From the NCBI GenBank assembly GCA_029863005.1, contig JAOTWF010000009.1, positions 1 through 60,102 on the forward strand: a stretch of 60,102 nucleotides of DNA, read 5' to 3'. The translations under genes and the position numbers were made by a program. The notes beneath the pieces are model-generated. The model saw only the letters and a list, made by a program, of their open reading frames with translations. It made no database searches and had not been told where the DNA came from. Of the stretch, positions 918-16,520 are shown one piece after another; position 1 is the first letter of the stretch; the number at the start of each line of letters is the position of its first letter. This stretch comes from Gammaproteobacteria bacterium (GTDB lineage: Bacteria; Pseudomonadota; Gammaproteobacteria; Acidiferrobacterales; Sulfurifustaceae).

Positions 918-1687
918 TCGGTGCCGCCAATCTCGCTTACGCCCAAGCGCGTACCCAGGCACGCCACGGTACACTGGCGAATGAATCCACTTGGCGCATG
1001 CTGTCGGCCACGGCCGCGTTCCGCGGATTTCTCGAGCAGGCGCGCCGCACGGCGTTGCGCCCCTGGCTGCTCAACATCAGCTCCATCTCAACCAAGCACG
1101 ATATCGAGCGGTTGCTGCGAGACAACTTGCGCGGGCGTATCGCCGAGGTCGCTAGATGGGTCCCACCAGCGCTGCGCCCCGCGGTGCACTGGACGGTGGC
1201 GCTGATCGAACTGCCGGCGCTCGATTATCTGCTACACGGCGGTGCGGCCCTGAGCTGGATGCGGGACGAACCGCGGCTGCAATCGATCGCTGCGGTTGAG
1301 CCGGGACAGCGCGCCGCTGTGCTGGCCCAGGGCGAACTTGCCGCAATAGCGCGTGGAGATCAGGGTAATACCCTGATTGAGCGCTGGCTGGTCGAATGGC
1401 GTCTGCGCTTACCGGCGCTGGCGCGCGGCGAGATGGTGCATCTCGAGCGACTGGCGAGGCTTGTCCTTACCGCGCTCGATGAGGCCGCGGCTCGCGCGCT
1501 CGAGCTCACGGTGCATGATTCTTCAGTGATCCGGCGCCGGCTGGAGAACGCGCTCACTTTCGAATTCCGTCGCCGTTTTCTCGAACCGGCGGCAATCTTT
1601 GCACATCTGTTGCTGGTGATACTGGAGTTCGCCGAGGTGCGCGGCGCACTCGTGAGCCGCGCGATTTTTGAGCCGGGGGTGCGCTGA
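914..1687 (+). CDS. ntpC: V/A-type ATPase subunit C (AC39-like)
   Basis: The 257-residue, helix-rich, Arg/Leu-rich protein lies between the G-like and I genes. It has the repeated helical pattern of subunit C/AC39, including an N-terminal segment reading YAQARTQARHG and a C-terminal EVRGALVSRAIFEPG region. In the family, subunit C is a soluble socket between the central rotor stalk and the membrane c-ring. The sequence is divergent, so assignment relies on gene order and length as well as pattern. It overlaps its neighbours by 4 bases upstream and 1 base downstream (TGATG), suggesting coupled translation. Confidence 0.65.
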   Translation: MIGAANLAYAQARTQARHGTLANESTWRMLSATAAFRGFLEQARRTALRPWLLNISSISTKHDIERLLRDNLRGRIAEVARWVPPALRPAVHWTVALIELPALDYLLHGGAALSWMRDEPRLQSIAAVEPGQRAAVLAQGELAAIARGDQGNTLIERWLVEWRLRLPALARGEMVHLERLARLVLTALDEAAARALELTVHDSSVIRRRLENALTFEFRRRFLEPAAIFAHLLLVILEFAEVRGALVSRAIFEPGVR

Positions 1688-3501
1688 TGCTGCGGTCCCT
1701 GCCCGCGCGCTGGTTCGAGGTGCTGGTGGCGCACGACGATGCGGCACGGGCGCTCGAGGCGCTGGCGACAACCGGCGCAGTCGAACTGGAACTCCACCCC
1801 GGTCCGCGCTCGAGCGCGCCACTTGCCGAACTCAAACCCCTGTTCGATCAATTCGCCGAACTCGCCACGCAGCACCAGCGTTACTGGCCGCGTCCGGCAG
1901 GGCGCGTTGAAGCCGTCGACGGCGTACCGCGTCAGGTGCTCGAGCGCGCACTCGCCGCCATCGTCGCTTGGCGCGAGGTCGCCGATCCTGTGATCCATGC
2001 ATTGCAGGCGCGAGAACAGACGTTGCAGGAACTTGAGATCTGGCACGAACTGTTCAGCCGTTTCAGTGACAGCGATCTGCAATTCTCTCTATTGCGACGA
2101 CCTGACAATGTGCTTGCTCGAAGGTTGTACGTGTTTCCACCGGGTGTGAACTTCCCAGTGCCGCCGGAAGTGATGGCACGACACTTTCTGCTCAGAGACC
2201 AAGCTTGTGTACTGGTGCTTGGGCCGAGCGAAACAGTAGAAGCGCTCGACCGTCAGGCGGTAGCGCTCAAGGGCCGGCGCAGCGGGCTCGGGATTCCGGG
2301 CTGGCTCTTGCCGCGCGCGGCCGACAATTTGCCCCAGGTTACGCGGCGCATAAAGGAAGCGCAGCAGAGTGTTGAGCACTTGCGCGCGACGCTCGATCAG
2401 TTCAATCAGCGCTATGCGCTCGCGGGCCATCTTGCGGAGATCGAGCGTTTGCGCTGGTTTGTCGCCGAGGAGCATATGCTGCCGACCACGGATTATTTCG
2501 CATGGCTGACCGGCTGGACCAGTGATATGCGTGGACGACGTCTCGCCGCGGCGCTACAGCGCGCGAGGCTACGCGCATTGGTGCGCTTCCCGCCGCCACC
2601 AGCCGATACCCAGGCGCCGCTGGTGCTGGCGAATCCGTGGTGGGCGCGTCCGTTTGAACTGTTTTCGCGCGCCATCGGCGTGCCTTCACGTGACGAAATC
2701 GATCCGAGCCCGTTGCTTGCGTTGATTGTTCCGCTGCTCTTCGGCTACATGTTTGGAGACGTCGGCCAGGGATTGGTACTGCTCGCCGTCGGGCTTGCGC
2801 TGCGCAAGCGTTACACGATAGCGCGCCTGCTGATCGCCGGCGGCGCCGCGGCGTCGGTGTTCGGATTCCTTTTCGGCAGCGTGTTCGCGCTCGAACATCT
2901 TGTTCCCGCGCTGTGGTTGTATCCGCTGGCGCAGCCACTCACGGTACTGCTCGTGCCGCTGTTGTTTGGCGCGGTGCTGCTGGCGCTTGGCCTGATGTTG
3001 GCAGGTGTTGAGGCATACTGGCGCCGGGAGCTTTCACACTGGCTGCTACGCGATGCCGGCATGCTGGTTGCGTATCTCGGGGCGCTGGCGGGAGTCGCGC
3101 ATCCAGTGCTGTTCTGGGTTAGCGCCGGCGGCATCGTGTGGTACATCGCTGGTCACTCGCTGCACGAACGCCAGGTTAGTGCCGTGTTGGCCGGAATGGG
3201 CGGTGTGCTCGAGCACAGTTTCCAGCTGGTCGTGAACACATTGTCGTTTGCGCGCGTCGGGGCCTTTGCCCTGGCACACGCGGGGCTGTCTGCGGCGGTG
3301 CTGACGCTGGTCGATGCGGCGAGACACGCGGCCACCGCCGCGCTGATCCTGTTGATCGGCAACCTCGTCATTATCGTGCTTGAGGGTCTGGTCGTCTCGG
3401 TCCAGACCACACGTCTCGTGCTGTTCGAGTTCTTCATTCGTTTCCTGCGCGCCGAAGGGCGGTCCTTCCATCCGCTGGCGGCGCCCCATCCCAACCACTG
3501 A
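1687..3501 (+). CDS. ntpI: V/A-type ATPase membrane subunit I
   Basis: The 604-residue protein has a soluble N-terminal half with helical coiled-coil stretches (about residues 85-130 and 215-260) and a C-terminal half from about residue 340 with multiple membrane segments, opening with PLLFGYMFGDVGQG, a hallmark of subunit I/a. A conserved arginine lies in the late segment SFARVGAFALAHAG and is the likely ion-channel arginine. The subunit forms the static half-channels beside the c-ring and holds the peripheral stalks. It starts on the stop codon of subunit C and is followed 10 bases later by the K gene. Confidence 0.93.
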   Translation: MLRSLPARWFEVLVAHDDAARALEALATTGAVELELHPGPRSSAPLAELKPLFDQFAELATQHQRYWPRPAGRVEAVDGVPRQVLERALAAIVAWREVADPVIHALQAREQTLQELEIWHELFSRFSDSDLQFSLLRRPDNVLARRLYVFPPGVNFPVPPEVMARHFLLRDQACVLVLGPSETVEALDRQAVALKGRRSGLGIPGWLLPRAADNLPQVTRRIKEAQQSVEHLRATLDQFNQRYALAGHLAEIERLRWFVAEEHMLPTTDYFAWLTGWTSDMRGRRLAAALQRARLRALVRFPPPPADTQAPLVLANPWWARPFELFSRAIGVPSRDEIDPSPLLALIVPLLFGYMFGDVGQGLVLLAVGLALRKRYTIARLLIAGGAAASVFGFLFGSVFALEHLVPALWLYPLAQPLTVLLVPLLFGAVLLALGLMLAGVEAYWRRELSHWLLRDAGMLVAYLGALAGVAHPVLFWVSAGGIVWYIAGHSLHERQVSAVLAGMGGVLEHSFQLVVNTLSFARVGAFALAHAGLSAAVLTLVDAARHAATAALILLIGNLVIIVLEGLVVSVQTTRLVLFEFFIRFLRAEGRSFHPLAAPHPNH

Positions 3502-3511
3502 GGGAAGAAAC

Positions 3512-3862
3512 ATGAAAACACGCTTCTTGTGGGCCCTTATACTGACGCTGTTCGTCGGCATGATGACCGTCGTCTCGAGCTTCATATGGTGGTGGCCGCA
3601 GGCATTGGCCGCGTCGCCCGTTGGCGCCGGTATCGGTGCCGAGGCGATGAGCTGGGGCTTCGCCGCTGCCGCCGCCGCCACCGGACTTGCCGCGCTCGGC
3701 GCGGGGGTGGCCGTTGCCAATGTCGGCGCGGCGGCCATCGGCGCCATTACCGAAAAGCCGGAGTTGTTCGGGCGGGTGCTGATCCTTGTCGGTCTGGCCG
3801 AAGGTATCGCCATTTACGGCCTGATCGTCTCCATTCTTATTCTTAACCGGCTCGGCGGATGA
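3512..3862 (+). CDS. ntpK: V/A-type ATPase rotor ring subunit K (c subunit)
   Basis: The 116-residue proteolipid has an N-terminal hydrophobic segment (about 5-33, possibly a cleaved signal sequence ending ALAA) followed by one helical hairpin. The second hairpin helix carries the ion-binding glutamate E97 in LVGLAEGIAIYG. The Gly/Ala-rich first helix and the short polar loop with ITEKPE are typical. It forms the rotating ring that moves protons or sodium ions; the sequence alone does not settle which. The ATG at 3512 follows a good ribosome binding site (GAGGGAAG); an upstream in-frame start would lie inside subunit I. Its stop overlaps the F gene start. Confidence 0.93.
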   Translation: MKTRFLWALILTLFVGMMTVVSSFIWWWPQALAASPVGAGIGAEAMSWGFAAAAAATGLAALGAGVAVANVGAAAIGAITEKPELFGRVLILVGLAEGIAIYGLIVSILILNRLGG

Positions 3863-4155
3863 TCGATATCGTCTTTATCGGAGATGAAGTCAGTGCCGCG
3901 GGCTTTCGCCTCGCCGGCGCGAGGGTCAATGTGCCGGTATCGGGCAGGGAGACCGAGGTGTTCGAGGCCGCGCGGCGTGAGGCGCGCCTGTTGCTGCTGA
4001 CGGCCGAGATCGCCGCGTGTCTGCCGCCGACTCTGTTATCGCGGGCGATGATCGCCGCACGCCCGCTGTTGCTGGTGATGCCGGACATCCGCATGCGCCA
4101 GCAGCCACTTGATCTCTCTCGCCTGGTGCGCGCTCAACTCGGCATCGAGACATAA
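3859..4155 (+). CDS. V/A-type ATPase subunit F
   Basis: The 98-residue protein begins MIDIVFIGDEVSAAGFRLAG, the typical N-terminus of the Rossmann-like subunit F, with a later segment (LLLLTAEIAACL) matching the second strand-helix unit. Subunit F binds the D subunit in the central rotor stalk and influences ATPase regulation. It overlaps the K gene by 4 bases (ATGA) and lies 3 bases before subunit E. Confidence 0.88.
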   Translation: MIDIVFIGDEVSAAGFRLAGARVNVPVSGRETEVFEAARREARLLLLTAEIAACLPPTLLSRAMIAARPLLLVMPDIRMRQQPLDLSRLVRAQLGIET

Positions 4156-4158
4156 AGC

Positions 4159-4758
4159 ATGAATGACAGTGCCCTGAAAGATATGCTCAAGCTCATCGCC
4201 GACCATGAACGCGAGTCGCGCGATTCGATTGGCGCACGCGCGGAGGCCGAGGCCCGCGGAATTATTGCCGAGGCCTACCGGCACGGCCGCGAGCGCATGC
4301 ACCAGACCATTGTCGACCTGCGCAGCGGAATGCGTCGAGAAATCGCGCGTGCCGACGCGGCGCTGGAAACCGCACGGCGGCAGCATCGCGCACGTTGTGA
4401 GTTCGCCATGCTCGAGTCTGCGGCCGAACCGCTGCGTGTGGCGCTGATTGAGCGCTGGCGCGATACCGCGTCCCGCGCGTCTTGGGTCGCGCGGCTCGTG
4501 TCTCAGGCGCACCGCGTGTTGCCGGCCAATCAATGGAATATTTTCCACGCGCCTGGCTGGACCGAGCCGGAACGGCGCGAGCTCGCCCACACTCTTGCGC
4601 ATGAACTTGATGTTGCGCTGCAATTTCACGAACGAGCCGATGTCGCCGCTGGTCTGCGGATTTGCGCGCGTGGCGCCTGTCTCGACGGCACGCTCGAGGG
4701 ATTGCTCGCCGACCACGATGGGATCCATGGGCGGCTGTTGGCGGAGGTCGGCGAGTGA
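4159..4758 (+). CDS. ntpE: V/A-type ATPase peripheral stalk subunit E
   Basis: This 199-residue protein has a long N-terminal helical coiled-coil rich in Ala, Glu and Arg (about residues 10-95) and a compact C-terminal domain, the layout of subunit E. Subunit E forms the peripheral stalk heterodimer with the G-like subunit, linking the catalytic head to subunit I. Its sequence is divergent and the call is helped by its position between F and A. The stop codon overlaps the GTG start of subunit A. Confidence 0.8.
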   Translation: MNDSALKDMLKLIADHERESRDSIGARAEAEARGIIAEAYRHGRERMHQTIVDLRSGMRREIARADAALETARRQHRARCEFAMLESAAEPLRVALIERWRDTASRASWVARLVSQAHRVLPANQWNIFHAPGWTEPERRELAHTLAHELDVALQFHERADVAAGLRICARGACLDGTLEGLLADHDGIHGRLLAEVGE

Positions 4759-6524
4759 GCACTATCGCGCGAATCCGGTGGATTTCGGGTCCGGTGCTGC
4801 GGGCCGTGACCGAGGGTGTATTTCAGATGCGTGAGGCGGTGGAGGTCGGTGAGACCCGCCTGCTCGGCGAGGTGATTCGTATCGAGGGCGAGGAGATTGT
4901 TGTCCAGGTATACGAGGACACGACCGGTCTCAAGCCTGGCGTCGAGGTCCACGGCAGCGGTCGGCCGCTGTCGGTGCCGCTCGGCCCCGGCCTGCTCGGT
5001 AATATCTTCGACGGTTTGCTGCGCCCGTTGGCCGGCACCGGCAGTCCTTATGTGTTGCCGGGCCTGCGCGCCGCGCCGCCTCTGTCCTTTGTATTTACTC
5101 CGACGGTCAAGCCGGGCAAGCGGCTGGAATCCGGCGCGGTGTTCGGCACCGCCGGCGCAGCGGCAAACGAAGCACGCTCGCAAAAGCTGTTGATCCCACC
5201 AAACCAGGGCGGCGAAGTCATACAGGTAGCTGCTGCCGGCAGCGTCGATGAGGATGCGCCGCTTCTCACGTTGCGCGGCGCAGAGGGAAAGGAATATACA
5301 GTGGCAATGCGCCACGACTGGCCGGTGCGCGCGCCGCGGCCCGTCATCGAACATCTCGCGAACGACAAGCCGCTGCTGACCGGTCAGCGCATCGTCGATT
5401 CCATTTTCCCGGTCGCGCTCGGCGGGCGCGCCGCCATCCCGGGCGGCTTCGGAACCGGCAAGACCATCCTGCTTGAAACGCTGGCCAAGTGGTGTACTGC
5501 CGATGTCATCGTTTATGTCGGCTGCGGCGAGCGTGGTAACGAGATCTCGGGCGTGCTCGAGGAGTTTCCCGAACTTGAGGACGCGCGCAGCGGACGCAAG
5601 CTGATGGAGCGCACAGTGATCATTGCCAATACCTCCAATATGCCGGTGTCGGCGCGCGAGGCGAGCATCTATACCGGTGTCACGGTGGCCGAATACTTCC
5701 GCGACCAAGGATTGCATGTTGCGCTCATGGCCGATTCCACCAGCCGCTGGGCCGAGGCGTTGCGCGAGGTGTCCGGGCGCCTCGGCGAATTGCCGGGCGA
5801 GGGCGCCTATCCGGCCTATCTCTCAAGCCGCTTGGCCGAGTTCTACGAACGCGCCGGACGCGTGACGACGCTCAGTCGTGCCGAGGGCTCGGTGACCATC
5901 ATGGGCTCGATCAGTCCACCGTCGGGCGATTTTTCCGAGCCCGTCACCTCGCACACCAAACGCTATATTCGCAGCTTCTGGGCGCTTGACGTGAAGCGCG
6001 CCCAAGCGCGCTTTTATCCCGCCATCCATCCGTTGCAGTCGTACTCCGAAGATGTCGGTCCGCTTGGCGCCTGGTGGCAGGCAACGGGAAACGCGCGCTG
6101 GCCCGAGCTGCGCCGGCGTTTCTTGACATTGCTTGAAGACCAGGCGCGTCTCGATCGCATGGCGCGCATTATCGGCAAGGACGCCATGCCTCCACGTCAG
6201 CAGGTGGTGCTTGCCTGTGCCGAACTGGTCAACGAGGCATTCTTGCGCCAGTCGGCGTATTCGCCGAGCGACCGTTATTGTTCGCCCGAACGACAAACGG
6301 CGATGATGAAATTGTTGGCTCGTTTTATTGAGCAGGCCGAGGCCGCCGTGGCCGAGGGAATGGATCCAGGCGCGCTCGCGCGTCTGCCGGTCTATCGCAA
6401 GCTCGTGCGTATGGGCGAAGACCTGCCGGAAGAGGCGCTCGAAAAGTACGAGCAGCTTGCGACCGAACTGGAACAGGCATTTACCCGGGTAAGTAAGGCC
6501 GATGCGCACGCAGCTGATCGCTGA
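4755..6524 (+). CDS. ntpA: V/A-type ATPase catalytic subunit A
   Basis: The 589-residue protein contains the Walker A motif GGFGTGKT at residues 230-237, the following GCGERGNE segment with the catalytic glutamate, and the insertion region (about 115-190) that marks V/A-type A subunits versus F-type beta. The start is a GTG at 4755 overlapping the subunit E stop (GTGA), giving the expected N-terminus reading [15 protein letters not shown]; longer in-frame starts would lie within subunit E. Three copies alternate with B to form the head that makes or hydrolyses ATP. Confidence 0.97.
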
Positions 6525-7938
6525 GTCGGCGGCCACCCGTCTGGAAGGCCCACTGCTCTTTCTCAAGCGCACGGTCGAGGCTGCGCTCAATGAGGCGGTC
6601 GAAGTCATCGGCGTAGACGGTCGCGCACGCCTCGGACGCGTGGCCACGCTTGATGAACAGCACATGGTAATCGAGGTGCTGGAGAGTACGAGTGGGCTCG
6701 CCCTGGCGCAGACGCGGGTGCGCTTCTTCGGTGAGCCGCTGCACTTCGCGGTCGGTCCCGGCGTTCTCGGGCGCGTGTTCAACGGCGTCGGGCAAGCGAT
6801 CGACGGTGGCCCGCCAATCGCCGCTGTCCGGCGTCTGCGCATCGAGGGGCTGCCGATGAATCCGGTCGAGCGTAACACACCCCGCGATTTCATCGAGACC
6901 GGTATCTCCACGATCGATCTCATGAACTCGCTCGTGCGAGGACAGAAGCTGCCGCTGTTCTCCGGTGGCGGTCTGCCGCACGATCGCATGGCGGCGCAAA
7001 TCGCGATCAACGCCCACCTGCGACGTGCAGAGACGCATGAGTCTCGTGAACGACAGAATGCCGAGATCACTCCTGGTGAGCATGCGGAGCAATTTGCCAT
7101 CGTTTTTGCCGGTATCGGTCTGCCATATGAAAGCGCGGATTACTTCCGGCGCACGCTCGAGGAATCTGGTGCGCTTACCCGCACGGCGCTATTTCTCAAC
7201 CTGGCGTCGGATTCAAGCACCCAGCGCCTGCTCACGCCGCGCTTTGCCCTCACCGCCGCCGAATACCTCGCTTTCATGGAGGGCAAGCACGTACTTGCGA
7301 TCCTGACCAACATGACCAATTATTGCGAGTCGCTGCGCGAGGTTTCCTCGAGCCACGGCGAGATCCCCTCGCGCAAGGGTTACCCGGGCTATCTTTATTC
7401 TGATCTTGCCACGCTGTACGAGCGTGCCGGGTGTTTGCGCGGTCATGCGGGTACGCTGACGCAGCTGCCGATCCTCACAATGCCGGCGGACGACATTGGT
7501 CACCCGATTCCGGATCTCTCGGGCTACATTACCGAAGGGCAGATCGTCATCGACCGCGAGCTTGATCGCCGCGGCATCTACCCGCCGGTCAAGGTGCTTC
7601 CCTCGCTCTCGCGGTTGATGAAGGACGGCACTGGCGAGAAATACACCCATCCTGATCATCCTGCGCTCGCCTCGCAACTCTTCGCCGCTTATGCGCGCGC
7701 CGCGCAGGTACGCATCCTCGCCGGCGTGGTGGGTGAGGAGGGCCTGGCCGAGGCAGACAGGCAATACCTCGAGTTCGGGCGTGAGTTTGAAGAGCAGCTG
7801 GTAAATCAGGCCGAGGCGCGCAGCCTCGAGGACAGCATGGCGATCGGCTGGCGCATTCTGCGTGCGTTCCCGCCGAGCGAGCTGACACGGCTGTCCGACG
7901 CGCAGATTCGCGCGCATATCACTGAGAAAAACGTATGA
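6502..7938 (+). CDS. ntpB: V/A-type ATPase regulatory subunit B
   Basis: The 478-residue protein aligns in pattern with V/A-type B subunits: the degenerate nucleotide loop FSGGGLPHDRMAAQIA replaces a Walker A motif, and the segment TNYCESLREVSSSHGEIPSRKGYPGYLYSDLATLYERAG lies in the core (quoted here only by its ends: TNYCESLREV to ATLYERAG). It forms the non-catalytic nucleotide sites of the head. The ATG at 6502 overlaps subunit A by 23 bases, longer than the other overlaps in this operon; a slightly later start is possible but no better candidate is seen. It ends with an ATGA overlap with subunit D. Confidence 0.96.
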   Translation: MRTQLIAESAATRLEGPLLFLKRTVEAALNEAVEVIGVDGRARLGRVATLDEQHMVIEVLESTSGLALAQTRVRFFGEPLHFAVGPGVLGRVFNGVGQAIDGGPPIAAVRRLRIEGLPMNPVERNTPRDFIETGISTIDLMNSLVRGQKLPLFSGGGLPHDRMAAQIAINAHLRRAETHESRERQNAEITPGEHAEQFAIVFAGIGLPYESADYFRRTLEESGALTRTALFLNLASDSSTQRLLTPRFALTAAEYLAFMEGKHVLAILTNMTNYCESLREVSSSHGEIPSRKGYPGYLYSDLATLYERAGCLRGHAGTLTQLPILTMPADDIGHPIPDLSGYITEGQIVIDRELDRRGIYPPVKVLPSLSRLMKDGTGEKYTHPDHPALASQLFAAYARAAQVRILAGVVGEEGLAEADRQYLEFGREFEEQLVNQAEARSLEDSMAIGWRILRAFPPSELTRLSDAQIRAHITEKNV

Positions 7939-8528
7939 GCGAGATTACTCCGACACGGGCTGCCGTACTGGAACTCGCCGAGGAACGTCGTGCCATGCAC
8001 GAAGGCTACGAGTTCCTTGACGAAAAGCGGCTGCTGCTGGCGGCGCAGATGTTACGCGAATTGCGCGCTTACGAGGCGGCATGGATCGTATTTCGCGAGG
8101 CCTTGCAAAACGCGGCGGTCGCGCTGCGAGCGGCGGTCACGCACCACGGTTTACATGGCGTTCAGGTCTATCCCGCGGCGGCGCTGGAGAACGCGGCGCT
8201 CACCATGCGCGAACAAAGCCTGCTGGGTGTGCACCTGCTCACGGCCTCTTTTGATGCATCCCTCGGGAAGACGGAGGTGGCGCTCAATCCATCTCCCGAG
8301 GCAGAACACTGTCGTCGGTTGTTTCTCGATACGCTGCAGCAGTCGGCCGCGCTCGCCGCGCACGCCTCCAATCTTGAGCGCCTGCGACATGAGTACCGGC
8401 GCACCGAACGACGCGCGCGCGCTCTCGAGGATGTGCTTATGCCCGAAATCGACGATACCATCAGGGAGCTTGAATCGCGGCTTGAGGAGATCGAGCAGGA
8501 AGAAGCGATCCGCGTACACCAGTTGTAG
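7935..8528 (+). CDS. ntpD: V/A-type ATPase central stalk subunit D
   Basis: The 197-residue protein has the two long helices at its ends expected of subunit D, the rotor shaft inside the A3B3 head. The N-terminal part reads LLLAAQMLRELRAYEAAW after a basic start, and the C-terminal helix contains EYRRTERRARALEDVLMPEI, the usual signature near the end of subunit D. It is the last recognisable gene of the ATPase cluster and overlaps subunit B by 4 bases. Confidence 0.92.
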   Translation: MSEITPTRAAVLELAEERRAMHEGYEFLDEKRLLLAAQMLRELRAYEAAWIVFREALQNAAVALRAAVTHHGLHGVQVYPAAALENAALTMREQSLLGVHLLTASFDASLGKTEVALNPSPEAEHCRRLFLDTLQQSAALAAHASNLERLRHEYRRTERRARALEDVLMPEIDDTIRELESRLEEIEQEEAIRVHQL

Positions 8529-14603: not shown

Positions 14604-16520
14604 ATGAAACTTGTACGACGGGTCGGGCAATGGTTTTTCCTGCGCCTGGAAAACCTGTTCAATATTCTTTTCGGCGACCGGCTCAATCCCCTGTATCACT
14701 TGGGCGCCATCGCCTTTCTGATGACCTGGATTGCCGTGGTCAGCGGCGTATACCTGTACATTTTTTTTGATACCGGTGTGAAAGAGGCCTATGCCTCTGT
14801 CGAGCGCATCACGCACGAGCACTGGTACATCGGCCAGATCATGCGCGGCCTGCACCGTTACGCCTCGGACGGCATGGTGCTGGCGATGGGGCTGCACATG
14901 CTGCGCCACTTCGTGTTCGATCATTATCGCGGCTTTCGCTGGTTCTCCTGGATCACCGGCATCTTCGTGATGTGGCTCGTCTATGCCTCGGGCATCAATG
15001 GATTCATGTTGCCGTGGGACCGGCTGGCGCAATTCGTCACCATCGCGACGGCGGAATGGCTCGACTGGTTGCCGATTATCTCCGAACCGATGGCGCGTAA
15101 TTTCCTGATGGAAGGCAGCGTGAACGACCGGCTGTTCTCGCTGCTGGCCTTCATGCACATCGGCATTTCGCTGATCCTCTTGCTGGTACTGTGGGTCCAT
15201 ACGCAGCGCGTGACCAAGGCGCAAACCAATCCGCCCCGATACCTCGCGCTGCCATTGCTGCTGGCACTGATCGTTCTCTCCCTTGTCTGGCCGGTGATGA
15301 GCCAGGGACCGGCAAATCTGGATACGCTGGTTACTACCCTCCAGCTCGACTGGTTTTACCTGCCGATCTTTCCGTTGATCTATGTCTGGTCGCCGAAGGA
15401 GGTGTGGTGGCTGGTCCTGGGCGGCACCGGCCTGCTGGCGCTCTTGCCCTGGTTGCCGCCGCCGCGACGTGCCGCCTCCAAGGGATTCCAACTCACCCTG
15501 CGTCCCGGTGATGAAACGGTGTCGGCAAGACCGGGAGAGACGATTCTGGAAGCCGGACTGCGCGGCGGGATCGCGCTGCCGTACGAGTGCCGCAGCGGCG
15601 GCTGTGGCGAGTGCAAGTGCACCGTGTTGCAGGGCAGCGTGGATCATGGTGCGTATCAGTCGGGAGTGTTGACGGAGGCGGAGCGCCACGCGGGCAAAGT
15701 GTTGATGTGCTGCGCCACGCCCTTGTCTGATCTCGATCTCGAATGCGAAAACATCGGTGTCGTGCGTGACATTCCGATCCGCACCTTCATGGCGCGCGTG
15801 CAGAAGCTGGAACGCCTGACGGAAGACGTCATGCGCGTGATGCTTAAATCACTCGATCCGGAACCGGTGCGGTTCCATGCCGGGCAATACATCAATATCG
15901 TGCTGGAGGAGCGCGAGCGGCGCGCGTTTTCCTTCGCCACCGCGCCGCATGAGGCGGAGTTGATCGAGCTGCACATCAAACTGATACCCGGCGGCGCGTT
16001 CACGACTTATGTCTTCAATGCCATGAAGGAGGGCGACATCCTGCGCTGCGAGGGACCGCTGGGTTCATTCTATCTGCGCGAGGACAGCGAGCGGCCGATC
16101 ATTTTCGTCGCCGGTTCCACCGGCTTCGCCCCGGTCAAGAGCATGCTGGAGCACGCATTTCACACCGGCCACTGGCGGAAGATGCATCTCTACTGGGGCG
16201 TTAAATCGGTCAGCGATTTTTACATGAAGGACCTGCCTGAACGCTGGGCGCGTGAACACGATAATTTCAAATTCGTTCCGGTGCTGTCCGAACCCTCACC
16301 GGGGGACAATTGGACCGGGCGCACGGGGACGGTGCACGAAGCCATTTTGCAGGATTTCCCGAACATGCAGGGCTGTGAGGTCTATGCCTGCGGGTCGGTG
16401 AGCATGGTCGAGACGGCGCACTCCGCGTTCCTGCAGAAGGGCATGGCGGAAGACCGCTGCTTCTCCGATGCCTTCAATTTTGCGCCGCATATCAAGGGGC
16501 AGGGTGGGGAGGTAATATAG
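14604..16520 (+). CDS. membrane cytochrome b fused to a plant-type 2Fe-2S ferredoxin and an FNR-type FAD/NAD(P) reductase
   Basis: The 638-residue protein has three parts. Residues 1 to about 285 are a cytochrome b/b6-like membrane domain with heme-ligand pairs H84/H98 and H185/H199, each spaced 14 as in bc1 cytochrome b, followed by two more membrane segments containing QLDWFYLPIFPLIY, which resembles the cytochrome b PEWY region. Residues 295-385 are a ferredoxin domain with C329, C334, C337 and C369 or C370. Residues 390-638 are a flavin reductase with RAFSFATAP (FAD) and VAGSTGFAPVKSML (NAD(P)). A route from NAD(P)H through FAD, 2Fe-2S and two b hemes to the membrane quinone, or the reverse, is inference. 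The ATG at 14604 removes 31 unsupported residues. The gene is single, not within a bc operon. Confidence 0.88.
   Translation: MKLVRRVGQWFFLRLENLFNILFGDRLNPLYHLGAIAFLMTWIAVVSGVYLYIFFDTGVKEAYASVERITHEHWYIGQIMRGLHRYASDGMVLAMGLHMLRHFVFDHYRGFRWFSWITGIFVMWLVYASGINGFMLPWDRLAQFVTIATAEWLDWLPIISEPMARNFLMEGSVNDRLFSLLAFMHIGISLILLLVLWVHTQRVTKAQTNPPRYLALPLLLALIVLSLVWPVMSQGPANLDTLVTTLQLDWFYLPIFPLIYVWSPKEVWWLVLGGTGLLALLPWLPPPRRAASKGFQLTLRPGDETVSARPGETILEAGLRGGIALPYECRSGGCGECKCTVLQGSVDHGAYQSGVLTEAERHAGKVLMCCATPLSDLDLECENIGVVRDIPIRTFMARVQKLERLTEDVMRVMLKSLDPEPVRFHAGQYINIVLEERERRAFSFATAPHEAELIELHIKLIPGGAFTTYVFNAMKEGDILRCEGPLGSFYLREDSERPIIFVAGSTGFAPVKSMLEHAFHTGHWRKMHLYWGVKSVSDFYMKDLPERWAREHDNFKFVPVLSEPSPGDNWTGRTGTVHEAILQDFPNMQGCEVYACGSVSMVETAHSAFLQKGMAEDRCFSDAFNFAPHIKGQGGEVI

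Follow-up and report, generated by a model that had tools for sequence, protein, structure and literature searches.

A conserved one-chain fusion of cytochrome b, ferredoxin and NAD(P)H reductase, and its association with a degenerate oxidase-like protein

A bacterial protein of 638 amino acids joins a respiratory-type cytochrome b, a ferredoxin and an NAD(P)H reductase in one membrane-bound chain, and this fusion is genuine and conserved. Its gene is commonly accompanied by one for a degenerate oxidase-like protein of the COX1 family, here termed HCO2. We give roughly even chances to the proposal that the fusion is the subunit through which NAD(P)H electrons enter a membrane system centred on HCO2, passing them on either to HCO2 or to quinone. 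Judged from its domains, the protein would constitute a bc-family cytochrome b wired straight to NAD(P)H within a single chain. In so compact a system, simple spectroscopy could test how electrons pass between NAD(P)H and the b hemes, a subject of debate also for b6f and FNR in cyclic electron flow.

The gene resides in contig JAOTWF010000009.1 of a gammaproteobacterial assembly, and the complete stretch of 60,102 nucleotides that was analysed is called the window below. Translation yields a single uninterrupted frame at exactly 14604-16520 of the plus strand, which carries the following features.

14604..16520, +, cytochrome b–[2Fe-2S] ferredoxin–FAD/NAD(P) reductase fusion (638 aa, ATG start; orthologues found)
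14604..15476, +, cytochrome b domain (residues 1-291), predicted helices A-F of the bc type, without helices G/H (model, VIA, hhalign)
14853..14855, +, H84, predicted heme b ligand, p side by predicted topology (invariant, aligned with a bc1 histidine)
14895..14897, +, H98, predicted heme b ligand, n side (invariant)
15156..15158, +, H185, predicted heme b ligand, p side (invariant)
15198..15200, +, H199, predicted heme b ligand, n side (invariant)
15348..15356, +, D249-W250-F251, at the position of the PEWY quinol-site motif (D and W in 77/77 aligned sequences, F in 74/77)
15501..15722, +, Fer2 [2Fe-2S] domain, residues 300-373, ligands C329, C334, C337 and C369 (Pfam 3.3e-15)
15795..16073, +, FAD_binding_6, residues 398-490 (Pfam 1.6e-13)
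16104..16421, +, NAD_binding_1, residues 501-606 (Pfam 1.3e-22)

The domain families named in a preliminary description of this DNA were all matched over their Pfam cut-offs, except Cytochrom_B_C, for which there was no match. The membrane part matches Cytochrome_B (residues 25-200, 2.2e-16) and Cytochrom_B_N_2 (2.1e-14), and the flavin and NAD(P) reductase domains that had been recognized in the last part of the chain correspond to FAD_binding_6 and NAD_binding_1. Among the NCBIfam matches listed (25 of 33), none reached its curated cut-off. Conservation was evaluated in an alignment (A3) of 77 full-length sequences, comprising the window protein and representatives from 76 of 80 homologous loci (L083, L095, L132 and L136 were left out); a further alignment (A4) holds 85 of 126 candidate stretches. 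All four heme histidines, C329, C334, C337, C369, D249 and W250 are invariant in the 77 sequences, and thus the concern that heme ligands might be missing in homologues does not hold. The ferredoxin motif C329-x4-C334-x2-C337 is as first described, and its partner cysteine, originally placed at 369 or 370, is taken to be C369 because C370 is replaced by valine in 4 of the 77 rows.

A model of the cytochrome b part folded alone (pLDDT 92, pTM 0.89) superimposes on helices A-F of a bc1 cytochrome b (9ftz_H) with a VIA Z score of 24.4 (262 residues aligned, rmsd 3.2). This part was folded separately because VIA comparisons with the whole chain covered mostly residues 388-626. The whole-chain model is less certain (pLDDT 82, pTM 0.61, with residues 385-391 and 623-638 below 50), so that how the reductase sits against the membrane domain is predicted with low confidence. 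When the fusion is aligned by hhalign with the bc1 cytochrome b encoded in the same genome (98.6%), all four histidines pair with bc1 histidines. The members of each pair, H84/H98 and H185/H199, are 14 residues apart, which bears out the bc1-like spacing noted earlier. The invariance and alignment of these histidines predict the two bis-histidine heme sites on helices B and D that are typical of bc1/b6f cytochrome b. Loop charges place the N terminus, the B-C and D-E loops and the FAD/NAD reductase inside and the D249 loop outside, in a predicted topology whose helix limits were set by hand, including helix B (84-104), which hydropathy missed.

Residues D249-W250-F251 align by hhalign with the PLWY motif of the host's own bc1 cytochrome b, so that the Qo motif position in the fusion reads xDWF and lacks both the proline and the glutamate of PEWY. 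The conserved D-W loop suggests a candidate quinone site. The bc1 cytochrome b of this genome (L064:9269-10525, minus strand) itself carries PLWY in place of PEWY at the quinol site. That protein has a Cytochrom_B_C match, whereas the membrane part of the fusion stops at helix F, ahead of the ferredoxin, and the C-terminal cytochrome b core (Cytochrom_B_C or subunit IV) is missing. Because this core and the Rieske and cytochrome c1 or f genes that accompany bc1/b6f enzymes are both absent from the fusion loci, the protein falls short of full membership in the bc1/b6f family. It shares helices A-F and the four heme histidines with that family and has an invariant D-W at the PEWY place, but differs from it in lacking helices G/H and a Rieske or c1 match at its locus and in carrying a C-terminal reductase. 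In b6 a cysteine holds heme c_n, and a heme of this type was considered and rejected: the corresponding residue 32 is histidine in the window protein and, across the 77 sequences, His in 52, Tyr in 21, Gln in 2, Asn in 1, Arg in 1 and Cys in none.

The C-terminal half combines Fer2, FAD_binding_6 and NAD_binding_1 in one chain, as do oxygenase-type reductases, and its predicted fold resembles GcoB, BenC and NqrF. GcoB (5ogx; VIA Z 30.8, 322 aligned, rmsd 11.2) and BenC (1krh; Z 28.9, 320 aligned, rmsd 10.4) share the Fer2-FAD-NAD order, and the high rmsd values arise because the domains are placed differently; the FAD/NAD part of NqrF fits closely (Z 29.7, 234 aligned, rmsd 2.1). Known reductases of these types serve oxygenases, P450s or Na+-NQR, and to our knowledge none is fused to a cytochrome b. 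NADPH oxidases and flavohaemoglobin, in which electrons pass from an FNR module to a heme and from there to O2 or NO, offer a possible working principle, but they have a different heme domain and no ferredoxin domain. A Pfam scan at E 0.001 found no ferric-reductase domain in the fusion and listed Cytochrome_B instead; the protein therefore lacks the ferric-reductase-like transmembrane domain that characterizes NADPH oxidases and ferric reductases.

The preliminary description had proposed surveying the distribution of the fusion, and full-length orthologues were found across the window's order, Burkholderiales and the 80 loci. Eight of 57 genomes of the window's order, its own included, encode the full-length protein, and a ninth (G008) has a copy cut at a contig end. 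One further case was found among 369 genomes sampled from the class (G379, where the gene is broken between two contig ends with 126 identical bases in common). A first impression from the order, that the fusion is restricted to one genus and its kin, was overturned by a tblastn scan of genome contigs, which returned 384 relatives. The best 80 of these 384 each span at least 613 of the 638 query residues, and in 3 of the 80 the frame contains a stop, an undetermined base or a break. By their titles, 64 of the 80 loci are betaproteobacterial, and the remainder include Sulfuricaulis kin and metagenome-assembled genomes (MAGs) labelled Lysobacterales or Steroidobacteraceae. Independence is incomplete among the 80 loci: judged by length, L071-L074 are contigs of G001, G007, G015 and G005, and a single MAG supplied both L108 and L147. 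Within Burkholderiales, the order of Ramlibacter lithotrophicus (G445), 21 of 300 sampled genomes encode the fusion, with the seed genome included in the count, and three more match the reductase half only. One scan for viral relatives found none, and none of 24 matching plasmid records covers 80% of the query, with ten listed rows matching the reductase half.

In a tree of cytochrome b domains (63 rows) the fusions can form one group, with support 0. A tree of the reductase half (71 rows, short search) places all fusions but one in a clade with an SH-aLRT value of 99, and the two apparently free-standing reductases inside it are a broken fusion (L132) and a contig-split one (L025). The exception is the fusion of G018, from the window's family, whose weakly placed position outside the clade makes a second fusion event possible.

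In the window, the fusion adjoins xseB-ispA-dxs on the opposite strand, as read by eye, and the same neighbour occurs in six genomes of the genus (G001, G004, G005, G006, G007, G008) and one of the family (G015). Most of the 80 loci carry genes of a cluster that includes a B-type heme-copper oxidase. For example, the order in G018 is CuA subunit, B-type oxidase, SCO1, fusion, small protein, HCO2 and a second cytochrome b fused to an FlpD domain, followed by dsrA and dsrB. The fusion gene lies outside this cluster in the window, at all six same-genus loci checked and at one locus of another genus in the family, and the window thus hides the oxidase partner. In the window's own genome the cluster is found elsewhere (L060, on contig C81), with these components.

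L060:290-1657, -, HCO2, degenerate oxidase-like protein of the COX1 family (Pfam COX1)
L060:1749-2252, -, small protein of ~167 aa, probably with one membrane anchor (two invariant cysteines in 55 rows)
L060:2667-4331, -, paralogue with cytochrome b, two [4Fe-4S] motifs and an FlpD (MvhD-like) domain (also at L002)

A bacteriohemerythrin gene (L060:2297-2692, minus strand) overlaps the cytochrome b-FlpD gene in this genome; it also occurs in G004 (L058) and G006 (L056), and had no match in the 80 loci. In G004, G006 and G018 the cluster adjoins dsrA and dsrB (L058:10223-12677, plus strand; also L056 and L054), genes that were named by eye and located by tblastn.

HCO2 is present on 63 of the 80 loci, SCO1 on 60, the small protein on 59, the B-type oxidase on 55, cytochrome b-FlpD on 53 and the CuA subunit on 24, all of which are lower bounds since many of the loci are short. 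At least one of the five cluster genes other than the cytochrome b genes is found on 71 loci, at least two on 63 and at least three on 59. Beyond the loci of the window's genus and family mentioned above, five show no cluster gene, most of them being short or ending close by. Directly upstream of the fusion lies HCO2 at 46 of the 80 loci and SCO1 at 18. With gene starts inferred by homology, the stop of HCO2 overlaps the start of the fusion in 29 of the 46 adjacent pairs; overlap between the fusion and the small-protein gene occurs in 12 of 18. The FlpD-type gene is dispensable, since 7 of 54 loci with both SCO1 and HCO2 have no match to it, 6 of these being without room for one.

COX1 is the only family that HCO2 matches in Pfam, and the protein has no PDB relative by sequence at E 1 and no NCBIfam match. 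Across 57 rows H64 is kept in 96% and H211, H342 and H344 are kept, but no conserved histidine pair occurs at the place of the CuB pair, with helices assigned by the general pattern. HCO2 may therefore have an altered or missing second metal, and is possibly a new type of heme-copper-like protein. The B-type oxidase of the cluster is a relative of ba3 (5e-49) that keeps its CuB-type histidines in 20 of 20 aligned rows and has glutamine at the position of the active-site tyrosine; it is called sNOR-like on the basis of this ba3 resemblance and the lost tyrosine, NorSY itself not being the comparator. The small protein matches neither Pfam nor NCBIfam families. In the FlpD paralogue, cytochrome b is 55% identical to that of the fusion over residues 1-293, and the four FlpD cysteines are 98-100% conserved in 46 aligned rows.

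The link between the fusion and HCO2 extends to whole genomes. In the sample of 300 Burkholderiales genomes (seed included; thresholds 1e-125 and 1e-60), HCO2 occurs in 20 of 21 genomes with the fusion versus 3 of the 279 others (Fisher 5e-27), such that 20 have both, one (G599) has the fusion only, three have HCO2 only and 276 have neither. In the window's order the corresponding fractions are 7 of 9 with the fusion and 9 of 48 without it (p 0.0011), and the two fusion genomes that lack HCO2 are 77% and 79% complete. These statistics ignore kinship among genomes and are inflated by shared inheritance of the gene cluster. In addition, HCO2 occurs in 16 genomes of the order, and 14 of these also encode the fusion or a long FlpD-type cytochrome b frame, a count for which the FlpD domain was confirmed in the sequences read rather than genome by genome. 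Because the fusion is tied to HCO2 in this manner, a subunit role is more likely than that of a free-standing enzyme.

As an entry subunit, the fusion would accept hydride from NAD(P)H at its FAD on the cytoplasmic side, and single electrons would then pass via the [2Fe-2S] cluster to the n-side heme b (H98/H199) and on to the p-side heme b (H84/H185). From there they might reach HCO2, either directly or via quinone at the D249-W250 loop. A direct path would have no need of the quinone site that the conserved D-W loop suggests, which is a point against this reading. In the cell the system would serve to bring NAD(P)H electrons to the reduction of NO or O2, bypassing complex I and bc1, with the FlpD paralogue drawing on a different cytosolic donor for the same partner. 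Where the gene has left the cluster, as in the window's genus, the protein would serve this partner in trans. The domains, ligands, predicted fold, gene linkage and co-occurrence all favour this reading, with an inferred electron path, whereas the position of the fusion outside the cluster in the window's genus and the lack of a conserved CuB-type histidine pair in HCO2 count against it.

The main alternative is a stand-alone NAD(P)H:quinone oxidoreductase with quinone, on the n or the p side, as its final acceptor and HCO2 as no more than a co-inherited neighbour. The cytochrome b fold with D-W at the quinol-site position, the NqrF-like reductase and the separate location of the gene in the window's genus would all suit such an enzyme. 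However, only one of the 21 sampled Burkholderiales carriers is without HCO2, the two genes often overlap, and the complex I genes in the window (read by eye from its open reading frames) would make a non-pumping entry point redundant. We consider this explanation unlikely. Of the compact NAD(P)H:quinone oxidoreductase first proposed, the idea of a one-chain membrane oxidoreductase linked to NAD(P)H is supported, but the protein does not look self-contained, given HCO2 in 20 of 21 carriers and cluster genes on 71 of 80 loci.

By analogy with mitochondrial ferredoxin, ferredoxin reductase and Cox15, the fusion might instead supply NAD(P)H electrons for cofactor assembly, with SCO1/CuA copper or heme A synthase (CtaA) as recipient. 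The occurrence of SCO1, ctaB and ctaA in or next to the cluster would fit this role. The closest gene overlaps are nevertheless with HCO2 and the small protein rather than SCO1, and ctaA-like matches are found on few loci (12 and 7 of 80, many loci being truncated), which leaves the assembly role quite doubtful.

A third alternative reverses the direction of flow. Quinol would be bifurcated at D249-W250, with one electron passing to HCO2 or the B-type oxidase in place of a Rieske protein and the other via hemes b and [2Fe-2S] to NAD(P)+. The heme ligands, D-W motif, n-side reductase and oxidase-like partner that this scheme calls for are all present. Electrons run downhill from NAD(P)H to heme and quinone, whereas transfer from quinol to NAD(P)+ without a high-potential branch is uphill by ~0.4 V per electron; moreover, electron movement from the p to the n side generates membrane potential rather than being powered by it. 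Plain reversal is therefore unlikely, and the reverse direction needs an energy source, be it bifurcation with a high-potential acceptor or something else. The absence of both the proline and the glutamate of PEWY also speaks against bifurcation, as does the lack of any tblastn match to the host's Rieske or c1 in the window or the 80 loci. The remark that no Rieske or c1 gene lies nearby is accordingly correct, but the same genome encodes a complete bc1 elsewhere, with the genes for Rieske protein, cytochrome b and c1 following one another on contig C78.

Surveys of 26 of the 80 loci, largely from MAGs of unstated completeness, bear on the same question. In 22 of the 26 carrier genomes a match to the Rieske N-terminal family exceeds the cut-off, and so the fusion does not replace bc1, which answers the earlier question of whether it occurs with or without that complex. 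RuBisCO is encoded in the window's own genome and in all four genus or family genomes tested, which would suit bifurcation, and the host is a probable autotroph of the Acidiferrobacterales, from a Sulfuricaulis-like genus for which we take sulfur oxidation to be a trait. RuBisCO is over cut-off in 18 of the 26 carriers (three matches are weak, perhaps RuBisCO-like or partial) and was not found in the other 8, including the isolates Ramlibacter cellulosilyticus and Paucibacter oligotrophus, which speaks against bifurcation. Supplying NAD(P)H for CO2 fixation is therefore not the general role. Of the initial idea that a lithotroph pushes electrons from quinol to NAD(P)+, the autotrophic setting is retained, whereas the direction is uphill without bifurcation and does not suit the carriers without a RuBisCO match. 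On the strength of the energetics and of both surveys, NAD(P)H entry is favoured and bifurcation is kept as a bold alternative.

Bifurcation does have a precedent in proposals for the anammox bacterium Kuenenia, whose Rieske/cytochrome b complexes with an NAD(P) oxidoreductase subunit (Kuste4569-4574 and Kustd1480-1485) have been suggested to operate in this way (PMC12954380). These complexes are the nearest proposals to the fusion. As described there, they likewise have iron-sulfur clusters that link cytochrome b to an n-side flavin/NAD(P) reductase, but consist of separate subunits with a Rieske protein, a subunit IV-like protein, multiheme cytochromes c and [4Fe-4S]/[3Fe-4S] relays (PMC12954380). 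The fusion differs in its single chain, its [2Fe-2S] relay, the lack of a Rieske match at its locus and its oxidase-like partner. Taken together, we judge quinol bifurcation by the fusion improbable. Its most far-reaching form, an O2- or NO-driven bifurcating cytochrome b that would send electrons from quinol to both HCO2 and NAD(P)+ (or a low-potential carrier in the FlpD paralogue), is a long shot; if true, it would represent a Q-cycle relative without a Rieske protein.

Finally, a frameshift or mis-assembly that merged two genes, an artefact of which the preliminary description had warned, found no support and is rejected with near certainty, since independent orthologues in many assemblies, including records without a MAG label (L131, L135 and L149), share the same architecture.

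No description of this fusion was found in the open-access literature, which may miss subscription-only work, in agreement with the initial impression that it is not a described respiratory enzyme; nor did the literature searched describe the cluster of cytochrome b fusion and HCO2 genes. Nitrosomonas norSY with senC encodes a two-subunit B-type enzyme with SenC/SCO, and the N. europaea sNOR has been argued to be an NO reductase or a high-affinity oxidase; the excerpts of that account mention neither a cytochrome b fusion nor HCO2 (PMC6967387). In the cluster described here, cytochrome b fusions go together with a degenerate protein resembling heme-copper oxidases, and about 7% of sampled Burkholderiales have it (fusion in 21 of 300, HCO2 in 23 of 300). 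Elsewhere in the window, positions 1687-8528 hold V/A-type ATPase genes (subunits I, A, B and D by Pfam) in a gammaproteobacterium.
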